A DNA stretch of 64,000 bases, taken from positions 1,426,001 to 1,490,000 of the forward strand of contig NZ_CP139779.1 of the NCBI RefSeq assembly GCF_034421375.1, in the 5' to 3' direction. Position 1 is the first letter of the stretch, and every line of letters begins with the position of its first letter. The stretch is from Microbacterium invictum. Its GTDB lineage: Bacteria > Actinomycetota > Actinomycetes > Actinomycetales > Microbacteriaceae. Shown here in pieces: positions 54,101-57,221 of the stretch. The translations under genes were made by a program, and so were the position numbers. Below the pieces are notes generated by a model, which saw only the letters and a list, made by a program, of their open reading frames with translations, made no database searches and was not told the origin of the DNA.

Positions 54101-54746
54101 CCTCGAGCTGCGCGGCGCAGGGAACCTCCTCGGCGCGGAGCAGGCCGGTCACATCGCCGGCGTCGGCTTCGACCTCTACCTCCGCATGATCGGTGAGGCC
54201 GTGGCGACCTTCCGCGGCGAGGACACCGAGGGGCCGACCGAGCTCAGGCTCGAGCTGCCCGTGCAGGCGCGTCTGCCCGAGGAGTACATCGACAGCGAGC
54301 GGCTGCGGCTGGAGGCCTACCAGAAGCTCTCCGCCGCCGCGACGCCGACCGCGGTCTCGCGCGACGCGGATGGCCGCGATCCGATCGACGCGGTGATCGA
54401 CGAACTGCGCGATCGCTACGGCGAGCCGCCCGCAGAGGTCGACGGACTCGTCGCCGTCGCCCGACTGCGTCGCAGGGCGGCACGTGCGGGTCTCACCGAC
54501 GTGGTCGCGATGGGGCCGAATCTGCGTATCGCGCCGGCGGACCTCCCCGACTCGATGCGGGTGAGGCTCCAACGCCTGCACCCCAAGGCCAAGCTCCTCG
54601 CCGGCGGCGAAGCGCTGGTCGTCCCGCTTCCTCGCGCGGGGGACGCCCCGCTCGGGGATGCCGAGCTGCTGGCGTGGGTCGAGCAGCTGCTCACGCAGCT
54701 GTGGCCCGACGCGACGGTCGACGCGGCGGCCCCGGCGACGGCCTGA
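51126..54746 (+). CDS. mfd: Transcription-repair coupling factor Mfd
   Basis: 1206 residues. Domain order: UvrB-like N-terminal region (to about 350), RNA-polymerase-interacting CarD-like domain (KTGDHVVHATHGIGRFIEL, near 510), SF2 translocase with LLSGDVGFGKTEVAVRAAF (Walker A, near 675), MIIDEEQRFGVEHK (Walker B), MSATPIPRTLEMA, then helicase C with THRILTERV and LHQLRGRVGR, and the C-terminal TRCF domain. It removes stalled RNA polymerase at lesions and recruits UvrA. Confidence 0.97.
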   Translation: MTIPGIVRALEQADSFREAVAAGAADAEYSVVEGLDAPLLASLLQRRRTAGKPAVLLAIAPTGRRAETLGPALQALLPDAEVRHFPAWETLPHERLSPTPEIVGRRLDVLGRIARLHPDDTLVVTASVRGAVQPLAAGLDAATPIELAVGERGHDLGQVAAQLVERAYHRVDMVSRRGEFALRGGILDVFPPTAEHPFRVEFFGDEVDQIRAFSVADQRSLPGEVAVVSLLASRELLLTEAVRDRARELKDEFPGLRGMLEKMAEGIPVEGMESLMPAVVDQLVTLVDYFPRGTAVALVDPERAIARATTLSDTNREFLDAAWNAATSGAESPIDLGAGDFVPLPRLREVVAERGGVWWSLSSFDSGAADASAEGLLDVGDTGVARVAATSLPAFQGNVDGAISHVAERLRAGWRVVVMASGGGLVERARDVLAERGLAARRVESIEDLPEPGVAQVVACSLERGFEVAEAQLSVITESEFYGRTIGGDARVVKKLASRRRNVVDPLQLKTGDHVVHATHGIGRFIELTQREVSSGGRNAVKSVREYLVLEYAPSKRGYPGDKLFVPTDQLDLLSKYVGGEAPTLSKMGGSDWAQAKGRARKAVRDIAVELVKLYSARMAARGHAFGPDTPWQRELEEAFPFAETPDQLQTIDEIKADMEKPIPMDRLLSGDVGFGKTEVAVRAAFKAIQDGKQVAMLVPTTLLVKQHLETFTERFAGFPVKVRALSRFQTDKQAKEIVAGLADGTIDMVIGTHRILTERVVFKDLGLMIIDEEQRFGVEHKDALKKLKTNVDILAMSATPIPRTLEMAVTGIREMSTLATPPEDRHPILTYVGARNDKQITAAIRRELLREGQVFYVHNRVSSIQRVAAHLAELVPEARVVVAHGQMGEHQLEQVVDDFWERRADVLVCTTIIETGLDIANANTIIIDRADKYGLSQLHQLRGRVGRARERAYAYFLYDENKPLSETAADRLETIAVNNDLGSGMQVALKDLELRGAGNLLGAEQAGHIAGVGFDLYLRMIGEAVATFRGEDTEGPTELRLELPVQARLPEEYIDSERLRLEAYQKLSAAATPTAVSRDADGRDPIDAVIDELRDRYGEPPAEVDGLVAVARLRRRAARAGLTDVVAMGPNLRIAPADLPDSMRVRLQRLHPKAKLLAGGEALVVPLPRAGDAPLGDAELLAWVEQLLTQLWPDATVDAAAPATA

Positions 54747-54790: not shown

Positions 54791-56485
54791 ATGACGTCGG
54801 GCGTTCGCAGCCGGCTGGCCACGGGGGCCCAGGCGTTCGTCAGCAACGCCCGCAATCCCAATCTGCGACGGGCGCAGCTGAGCTTCCTGGGCGCGTGGAC
54901 CGCGGAGTGGGCGTTCACGGTGGCTCTCGGGATCGTCGCGTACAACAGCGGCGGACCTCTCGCCCTCGGCTTGGTCGGGCTGCTGCGGATGCTGCCGTCC
55001 GCCCTCCTGGCTCCCGTCCTGTCTCCTCTGGCCGACCGGGGAAGACGCGAGCGGGTCCTCATCGTGGTCTCGGTCGCGCGCGGCGTCGCCACGGCTCTGG
55101 CCGCCGTCACCATCGCGTTCTCAGGACCGGTGGCGCTCGTCTACGTGCTCGCCGTGATCTCCACGATCGCGGCCACGCTCTTCCGCCCCGCCCACTCCGC
55201 GCTCCTGCCGACGCTGTGTCGGACCGGGCACGAGCTGGCGAGCGCCAATGTCGTGCGCGGGATGCTCGACTCGATCGCGACCCTCGTCGGGCCCCTGCTG
55301 GCAGCCATCCTGCTCGCGGTCGCCGACGTGTGGGTGGTGTTCGGTGTTGCCGCGGCGGCGTCGTTCTGGGCTGCGCTTCTCCTCCTGCGTCTGCGCTACG
55401 ACGCGCCGGCCCGTGGGCGGTCCGCGCGTCCGGCGCTTCTGAAGGAGACCGTCGAGGGTCTCCGCGCGGTCAGAGGTGACGGCGGCCTGATGCTCATCCT
55501 CGGACTGGCCGCAGCGCAGTCGCTCACCCGGGGGGCCTTGACCGTCTTCTCGGTCGTCGTCGCGATCGAGCTCCTCGGACTCGGCGAGCCCGGTGCGGGG
55601 GCTCTGATGGCCGCGGTCGGGGTGGGGGCCGTGGTCGGATCGCTCTTCGCCTCCCTGCTCGTCGGCAGCGGACAGCTCGGGGCGTGGTTCGCGATCGGCG
55701 TGGCGCTCTGGGGGCTTCCGATCGCCCTCATCGGCGTCTTCCCTGCGCAGGCCGCCGCGCTCGTGCTTCTCGCCTTCGTGGGCATCGGCAACGCCCTGAT
55801 CGATCTCGCCGGCTTCACCCTGATCGGCAGGCTCGCCCCGGATGCGGTGATGGCGCGCGTCTTCGGAGTGCTCGAGAGCCTCGTCACGATCTCGATCGGG
55901 GTCGGGTCCGTTCTCGCGTCGATCGTCATCGCGTGGGTCGGTCTTCCGTGGGCGCTGATCTCGATCGGACTCGTCTGTCCCGTCCTCGCCGCAGCGTCGT
56001 GGTGGCGGCTGCGGCGCCTGGATCGATCCGTGGGGGCCTTGGACGCGGACGTGAGTCTGCTGCAGCGGGTCCCCATGCTGGCGCCCCTGCCTCTCCCCGC
56101 CATCGAGCAACTCGCTCGGGGTCTCGACGACAGCGAGCTCGCCGCCGGCGAGACGGTCTTCCGCCAAGGCGACGTCGGGGACCTCTACTACGTGATCCGA
56201 TCCGGCACGGCGGAGGTCCTCGGCGACGGACGACGGGTGGCGAGCCTCGGCCCCGGCGACGGATTCGGTGAGATCGCCCTTCTGCGCCGAAGTCGCCGTA
56301 CGGCATCAGTCGTCGCCACCGAGCGGCTGAACCTCACTTCGCTGACCGCCGATCGATTCGCGACCGCCGTCCTCGGCTATGCGCCGGCGACCGCTCGTGC
56401 CGAGCAGGACGTCGTCGACCATCTCGCCCGCTTCTCGCCGGCCGGGGACCACGCGCACACTGACGAAGAGAGTCACGATCGATGA
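54791..56485 (+). CDS. MFS transporter fused to a C-terminal cyclic-nucleotide-binding domain
   Basis: 564 residues. Residues 1-410 form a 12-helix MFS domain of the MFS_3 type, with the cytoplasmic loop ADRGRRERVLIVVSVARG. Residues 427-540 form a cNMP-binding domain: VFRQGDVGDLYYVIRSGTAE and the phosphate-binding cassette FGEIALLRRSRRTAS. Glu494 and Arg503 are nine residues apart, as in proteins that bind cAMP or cGMP (PKA RIalpha E200/R209). Transport may therefore be gated by a cyclic nucleotide. The substrate is unknown. The next gene, 19 bases on, is a cyclase-like DUF2652 protein. The gene has its own leaderless-type promoter after mfd. Confidence 0.9.
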   Translation: MTSGVRSRLATGAQAFVSNARNPNLRRAQLSFLGAWTAEWAFTVALGIVAYNSGGPLALGLVGLLRMLPSALLAPVLSPLADRGRRERVLIVVSVARGVATALAAVTIAFSGPVALVYVLAVISTIAATLFRPAHSALLPTLCRTGHELASANVVRGMLDSIATLVGPLLAAILLAVADVWVVFGVAAAASFWAALLLLRLRYDAPARGRSARPALLKETVEGLRAVRGDGGLMLILGLAAAQSLTRGALTVFSVVVAIELLGLGEPGAGALMAAVGVGAVVGSLFASLLVGSGQLGAWFAIGVALWGLPIALIGVFPAQAAALVLLAFVGIGNALIDLAGFTLIGRLAPDAVMARVFGVLESLVTISIGVGSVLASIVIAWVGLPWALISIGLVCPVLAAASWWRLRRLDRSVGALDADVSLLQRVPMLAPLPLPAIEQLARGLDDSELAAGETVFRQGDVGDLYYVIRSGTAEVLGDGRRVASLGPGDGFGEIALLRRSRRTASVVATERLNLTSLTADRFATAVLGYAPATARAEQDVVDHLARFSPAGDHAHTDEESHDR

Positions 56486-56504
56486 ACGAAAAGCGGAGGA
56501 TCGG

Positions 56505-57221
56505 ATGACGACACGCAGGACGGCGTTGCTCATCGCCGACATCGGCGGGTACACCGCCTATATGGGCACGCACCGCATGAGCCTCGCTCACGCGGAGGTG
56601 AACACCGCACGCCTGCTCGACCGCATCGTGGCCGCCGCGCCGGGATTCGATCTCGTCGAGATCGAAGGGGATGCCGCGTTCCTCTCGCGACGCGTGGCAC
56701 CCGAGTCCGACGCGACCCTCTCGGACGTGCTGCGCACGGCCGCCGCCATGCACCGGGCGTTCCACGCCGAGCGTGAGTACGTCGTCGCCAATCTCTGCCC
56801 GTGCGGCGGGTGCCGGGAGGCGAAGGGGCTGACGCTGAAGTTCGTGGCCCACGTCGGCGACGTGGCACTCCAGAGCATCCGGGGCCGGACCAAACCGGTC
56901 GGCATCGACGTGATCCTCCTGCACCGTCTGCTGAAGAACGATGTCTCGATCCGCGAATACGTGCTGCTGACGGACGATCTCTACGCCGGCGGCGCCGATC
57001 TCCCGGCTACGGCGACCGGGATCACCGCCGATCTGGAGGGCATCGGGCCGGTGCCCGCCCATTTCGTCGACGTCACGGAGCTCGACGCCGGACCGGGACC
57101 GTCCCGTCCGGGCCTCGGGGCGCGCCTTGCCAGCACGTTCTCCGCCGTCGGGCGAGGACTGCCCTACATGGTGGGCTCGAAGAAGCCGCGGAGGGACAGA
57201 TCGCCGGCGGCGATGGGGTGA
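56505..57221 (+). CDS. DUF2652 protein, divergent class III nucleotidyl-cyclase-like
   Basis: 238 residues. N-terminal LLIADIGGYTAYM matches the DIxxFT motif (Asp12) and VEIEGDAAFL the GD motif (Asp56); the 44-residue distance equals that of the two metal aspartates of class III cyclases (D396/D440 in adenylyl cyclase C1). Other key residues differ: the Lys before GD is Glu52 and the transition-state Asn is Ile137, while the Arg (141) is kept. A Cys cluster CPCGGC (98-103) lies before FVAHVGDVAL. It may be a degenerate cyclase, a nucleotide sensor or a metal-binding protein. GCGGAGGA lies before the ATG. It sits in an operon with the MFS-cNBD gene. Confidence 0.85.
   Translation: MTTRRTALLIADIGGYTAYMGTHRMSLAHAEVNTARLLDRIVAAAPGFDLVEIEGDAAFLSRRVAPESDATLSDVLRTAAAMHRAFHAEREYVVANLCPCGGCREAKGLTLKFVAHVGDVALQSIRGRTKPVGIDVILLHRLLKNDVSIREYVLLTDDLYAGGADLPATATGITADLEGIGPVPAHFVDVTELDAGPGPSRPGLGARLASTFSAVGRGLPYMVGSKKPRRDRSPAAMG

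Follow-up and report, generated by a model that had tools for sequence, protein, structure and literature searches.

Two adjacent genes in a stretch of 64,000 nucleotides from the genome of Microbacterium invictum (positions 1,426,001 to 1,490,000 of contig NZ_CP139779.1; the whole stretch is called the window below) stay linked in many soil bacteria and, taken together, are probably a small built-in switch for signalling. The first encodes a transporter of the major facilitator superfamily (MFS) with a C-terminal cyclic-nucleotide-binding domain (cNBD). The second, which follows it head-to-tail after a gap of 19 bases, encodes a protein of the DUF2652 family. We consider it very probable that the two proteins act together, and we give a probability of about 0.55 to the reading that the DUF2652 protein makes a cyclic nucleotide that the cNBD reads. 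The open reading frames, positions and spacing described in an earlier note, which was made from the letters of the window, were all confirmed, and the residues it named (Glu494, Arg503, Asp12 and Asp56) are placed correctly. The pair has the following features:

54791..56485, + strand: MFS transporter with C-terminal cNBD, 564 residues (Pfam; structure model with a predicted local distance difference test score, pLDDT, of 87.3)
54884..55996, + strand: MFS membrane domain, about residues 32-402 (Pfam MFS_1, model helices, Foldseek)
56093..56434, + strand: cNBD, about residues 435-548, beta-roll and C-terminal helices (Pfam, model, Foldseek)
56264..56305, + strand: phosphate-binding cassette FGEIALLRRSRRTA, residues 492-505, with E494, R503 and T504 (alignment)
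56505..57221, + strand: DUF2652 protein, 238 residues, predicted class III cyclase fold
56538..56540, + strand: D12, first metal aspartate position, invariant in 42 of 42 aligned proteins
56658..56672, + strand: E52-I-E54-G-D56, with E52 the base-specifying position, E54 family-specific and D56 the second metal aspartate; invariant in 42 of 42
56796..56813, + strand: CPCGGC (C98, C100, C103), a CxCxxC motif and possible metal or redox site, in 318 of 318 entries
56892..56894, + strand: K130, second base-specifying position and charge partner of E52 (residue counts)
56925..56927, + strand: R141, transition-state Arg position, in HRLLK, invariant in 42 of 42

The linkage of the two genes, for which the earlier note had proposed a neighbourhood survey, is conserved. 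A single scan of a genome collection with the DUF2652 protein gave 63 named loci (L028-L090), and the open reading frames in their flanks (8 kb per side at most, and shorter where a contig ended) were compared with profiles for DUF2652, for the MFS portion and for the cNBD; a simple gene caller, which misplaces some genes, served for orientation only. Of the 63 loci, 57 have an MFS-cNBD gene in the neighbourhood of DUF2652: upstream on the same strand in 42, downstream on the same strand in nine, upstream and divergent in three, and downstream and convergent in three. Four loci without a full MFS-cNBD gene (L054, L072, L076 and L079, the last also with an MFS gene cut by the contig end) have a PIG-L-cNBD fusion gene near DUF2652. 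There is no MFS-cNBD gene at L063, which begins 149 bases from a contig end, or on the 5.7 kb contig of L090, a 40% identical homolog from a KSB1 metagenome-assembled genome. Nine further loci from the organism's own bacterial family were left out of the 63, some being from genomes already among them; eight have the upstream same-strand arrangement and one has no DUF2652. Among 398 genomes of this family, nine have DUF2652 and ten have an MFS-cNBD gene (at 1e-60), and all nine are within the ten.

The pair has stayed intact through several changes of order and orientation. A quick tree of DUF2652 (67 rows, four of them mycobacterial; weak support at 25 of its 64 inner branches) requires six changes between the four arrangements, where three would be the minimum; counting only what strongly supported branches demand gives 3, 2, 1 and 2 for the four arrangement groups. 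At L057 (1111-2844), inside a clade whose partner gene is upstream, a different MFS-cNBD gene, with a product 37% identical to the window's, lies downstream of DUF2652; it has replaced the original partner. In a few loci a gene is read as two overlapping frames (MFS-cNBD in L038 5136-7948, L041 6209-7951 and L069 6121-8001; DUF2652 in L089 7683-8707), which are broken genes or sequencing errors.

The first protein looks like a receptor, and the earlier note's description of it, an MFS transporter whose C-terminal cNBD has an intact cassette, holds in full. Pfam assigns it to MFS_1 (4.5e-27, above the gathering score) and to cNMP_binding (PF00027; 3.2e-17, 62.7 bits with a cut-off of 27.5), and it also passes the MFS_3 cut-off; its score for the MFS H+ antiporter subfamily TIGR00900 is 139.4 bits, below the NCBIfam cut-off of 319.6. 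The cNBD has a beta-roll in the model and an intact cassette (Gly-Glu, Arg), in which E494 and R503, nine residues apart, do not vary among the 24 MFS-cNBD proteins that were aligned (the window protein and 23 relatives chosen from 56 usable loci). The CNBD of HCN4 (3u11) is the first Foldseek row for the model, and the MFS matches among the top 50 rows are VMAT1/2, VAChT, SLC37A4/G6PT, SotB, MdfA, PEPT-type proteins and 6oom. These carriers are mostly of antiporter type, and not all are exporters.

The second protein matches DUF2652 (PF10851) at 4e-34 (117.6 bits; curated cut-off 22.1). Its predicted fold, which the earlier note had suggested comparing with class III cyclases, is of that class. 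The spacing of motifs was used to assign the catalytic positions known from cyclases; D12 and D56 have the canonical spacing of the metal aspartates, as the note had said, and are invariant in the 42 aligned DUF2652 proteins. Its further statement that the catalytic Lys and Asn are absent and that a CPCGGC cluster is there instead stands in its first half, the two positions being E52 and I137. The cluster is shared by the whole family (CxCxxC is in all 318 DUF2652 entries examined, in entry sets that partly overlap) and directly precedes a strand beginning at residue 110, a position that marks it as a family trait and not as a replacement of Lys or Asn. The note had also passed over the kept R141 and the Glu at position 52, which is the guanylyl-cyclase-type residue. 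The base pair is E/K in the window protein compared with K/E in 118 of 120 mycobacterial-type proteins, the pair being compensated by a charge swap. Together, the predicted fold and the residues support a relationship of DUF2652 to class III cyclases.

We propose that the two genes would make up one co-inherited signalling module. The DUF2652 protein would dimerise in the class III cyclase manner and convert a nucleoside triphosphate to a 3',5'-cyclic nucleotide, which would bind the cNBD and so switch the antiporter-like MFS unit. The leading guess is conversion of GTP to cGMP, on account of E52/K130 in DUF2652 and of the Thr that follows the Arg of the receptor's cassette; the chance that cGMP is the product is about one in three. 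Thr at that place is frequent in cGMP-responsive domains but is also found in HCN channels, so it is only a hint. The likeliest input site, for a metal or a redox signal, would be the CxCxxC motif; this step is the least certain. The M. invictum genome has one DUF2652 gene and two cNBDs, one of them with an intact cassette; the second PF00027 domain (L116 5308-7023, about 445.3-447.0 kb) is the N-terminal part of a TrxR-like pyridine-nucleotide-disulphide oxidoreductase and has no cassette Arg. It has no PF00211 cyclase, other cyclase classes not having been searched for, and the count is one class-III-like producer and one intact-cassette receptor. Two parts of the self-contained module proposed in the earlier note are upheld, namely the linkage through rearrangement and one partner replacement, and the cyclase kinship seen in predicted fold and residues.

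Several results weigh against the proposal that DUF2652 makes the signal. The Asn position is Ile in 119 of 120 window-like entries (one unread), so of the transition-state Asn and Arg only R141 is kept, and E52/K130 is neither the Lys/Asp pair of adenylyl cyclases nor the Glu/Cys pair of guanylyl cyclases. DUF2652 is the protein's sole Pfam family at E 1, with no match to PF00211, and comparing its profile with those of canonical cyclases gave no significant score, although the D12 and GD motifs lined up. Searches of the PDB gave no cyclase with the single sequence (one chance-level match to another fold) and nothing with the DUF2652 profile; the cyclase kinship therefore rests on the predicted fold and on published profile work. 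Canonical cyclases are present in 22 of the 31 genomes behind the named DUF2652 loci (at least four of which, those of L030, L035, L053 and L062, repeat the family set, all four without PF00211), so DUF2652 is often not the sole candidate source of a signal. In a set from the phylum, MFS-cNBD genes (at 1e-40) occur in 26 of 396 genomes, and PF00211 in 25 of the 25 besides the window's own, compared with 73 of 149 genomes in a background draw (62 of 138 without 11 shared genomes), but kinship to lineages rich in cyclases confounds the 25 of 25; G025 and G200, two of these 25, have DUF2652 too, on another contig. Finally, Glu52-type DUF2652 proteins without a visible cNBD occur at L090 and at L115 (E/R), and in other DUF2652 clades (mycobacterial and others) a cNBD was found in the fetched flanks of 0 of 15 loci, for which longer flanks were taken although several lie on short contigs (L108 4.6 kb, L112 5.7 kb). 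We therefore rejected a cNBD association of all DUF2652 proteins: the near-constant association belongs to one clade and is not shown in others. The sixteenth hit in other clades (L016, 1-1006), a divergent DUF2652 fragment with a 38-residue match where the contig begins, does have a cNBD gene close by: a lone one with intact cassette, on the opposite strand and within 0.5 kb. The divergent DUF2652 frames of L105-L114 are 331-854 residues long and, read by eye, seemingly have further C-terminal domains.

Nor do we claim that DUF2652 strictly substitutes for canonical cyclases. PF00211 is present in 11 of 100 genomes of the bacterial family and absent from eight of the nine with DUF2652 (G670 has one), but more widely it accompanies DUF2652 in the 22 of 31 genomes mentioned above. 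The family genome G761, with an MFS-cNBD gene and no DUF2652, has six PF00211 matches in five reading frames, and tblastn of the fetched 16 kb around its MFS-cNBD gene found no DUF2652 remnant. This gene (L117, 7364-9082) lies, as read by eye, directly upstream of an apparent ftsH. Canonical cyclases are in the fetched flanks of six of 29 orphan MFS-cNBD loci (adjoining in L156 and L174), although five of these six supplied profile seeds and the one at L159 is a 123-residue piece; they are at one of the 63 DUF2652 loci, L056.

An alternative is that DUF2652 is a pseudocyclase, which would keep the fold and the binding of metal and nucleotide, sense something (for example through CxCxxC) and act on the MFS-cNBD protein by contact, making no signal. 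We regard this as rather unlikely. The lost Asn, the noncanonical E/K pair and the CxCxxC kept in every entry all fit it, and canonical cyclases could supply the cNBD in the 22 genomes that have them. However, both metal aspartates and R141 are invariant and the base pair is compensated by a charge swap, as expected of an enzyme, and the variety of cNBD proteins in the neighbourhood (distinct MFS-cNBD types, PIG-L-cNBD and lone cNBD) fits a diffusible signal better than contact.

We compared the neighbours of the DUF2652 genes all against all in 37 of the 63 loci (open reading frames of at least 150 residues, with clusters chained and antisense shadows included). A PIG-L (LmbE-like) hydrolase with a C-terminal cNBD is encoded near DUF2652 in 16 of the 63 loci (L054, L056, L058, L065, L067, L070-L079 and L086), with AHPDD and HPDH motifs readable in the translation, for example at L056. 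Three of these fusion proteins were scanned; their nearest NCBIfam models, none reaching its cut-off, are those of the thiol-pathway deacetylases BshB2, MshB and Mca, and MshB is the best PDB match of one. At four loci (L056 9982-11878, L058 4161-6049, L072 8793-10511 and L076 8029-10338) it is accompanied by a lone gene for a cNBD and by a gene of the PALP family, which a recheck of one of the clusters brought out as a real further neighbour; the two PALP-family genes scanned match cysteine synthase below cut-off. In L054 the gene about 5 kb away is one for an ordinary cysteine synthase A. A theme of thiol metabolism is possible at the four PALP loci.

With DUF2652 as the cyclase, the same signal would in Geodermatophilaceae, Kribbella and others also reach the PIG-L-cNBD protein and, in the four loci, the lone cNBD protein. 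A more specific version seems doubtful to us, although a PALP-family neighbour raises its odds: that a noncanonical cyclase subfamily, possibly switched by metal or redox state through its three cysteines, runs a closed circuit gating a secondary exporter and in relatives also drives a cNBD-fused hydrolase related to the low-molecular-weight thiol deacetylases BshB2, MshB and Mca, next to which four loci have a lone cNBD and a gene resembling cysteine synthase. This would amount to thiol- or electrophile-triggered detoxification and export, under the control of a cyclic nucleotide that acts on the proteins themselves. It is improbable, in our estimation, that what the MFS protein exports is the cyclic nucleotide, the cNBD sensing this product or serving as a feedback valve; the tight gene pairing and an MFS fold like that of antiporter-type exporters would agree with it, but the presence of PIG-L-cNBD and lone cNBD proteins in these neighbourhoods points to a regulatory ligand, and MFS-cNBD relatives without DUF2652 exist.

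The pair also recalls Pycsar antiphage systems, which have the same two-gene logic of a class III-like cyclase and a cNBD effector but use TIR or pore effectors and other base-pocket residues, according to the part of the source consulted (PMC11224242). We think a Pycsar-like role very improbable. The distribution is patchy (9 of 398 genomes of the family) and the cNBDs weakly match PADLOC Pycsar models, through the cNBD alone, but DUF2652 has no PADLOC match at 0.01 and hence no PycC-type model. No phage record matched, and only two plasmid records did (30-31% over 60% of the length). The window's pair lies downstream of mfd, which ends at 54746, and is followed on the opposite strand by the genes for phosphoenolpyruvate carboxylase and then nhaA, and the recurrent extra neighbours are metabolic in kind (PIG-L-cNBD at 16 of 63 loci, cysteine synthase-like genes at four). 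An origin in mobile or defence elements, looked for in PADLOC, phage and plasmid records and flanking genes, is thus unsupported. That an old gene pair merely stays together without a joint function is hardly credible, since the single arrangement in 42 of 63 loci is what descent alone would give but the pair outlasted several changes of order and orientation, had its partner replaced in L057, and co-occurs in nine of nine genomes.

The earlier note knew of no described system of this make-up, which needs correction because both parts are in print. Ramakrishnan et al. (2016; PMC4886424) proposed DUF2652 as a class III cyclase-like subfamily with the metal Asp pair, the Arg and, in some members, predicted to be guanylyl cyclases, an E,K pair; cNMP-binding genes lie near some members, including those of Mycobacterium tuberculosis. 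The consulted part of that paper gives associations for 12 proteins and names no MFS-cNBD or PIG-L-cNBD partner, whereas here one clade has a near-constant dedicated cNBD partner. MFS-cNBD fusions like the one here are mentioned in a 2023 review (PMC10710835), the consulted part of which states no cyclase partner or function. As far as seen in its source (PMC10620091), the SLC9C1-type sperm Na+/H+ exchanger is likewise a secondary transporter bearing a cNBD, but it is an animal protein with another transporter unit and a voltage sensor. DUF2652 differs from class III cyclases (PF00211; CyaC, Cya2) in its Ile for Asn, E/K base pair, E-G-D for I-G-D, CxCxxC and lack of a PF00211 match. Neither the specific DUF2652 and MFS-cNBD pairing nor DUF2652 biochemistry was found in the literature searched, parts of it seen incompletely and most subscription journals lying outside its coverage. 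The pair is a variant of the cyclase-plus-cNBD-effector kind, with parts partly described and a pairing not found in print.

If the proposal is true, DUF2652 would gain a function and a signal, and bacteria would have a secondary transporter whose gating depends on a cyclic nucleotide made by a cyclase dedicated to it. The E/K and K/E swap would then be a defined specificity switch. The M. invictum genome, with no cyclase of the one class searched for and a single intact-cassette PF00027 domain, is a clean test bed with few confounders.
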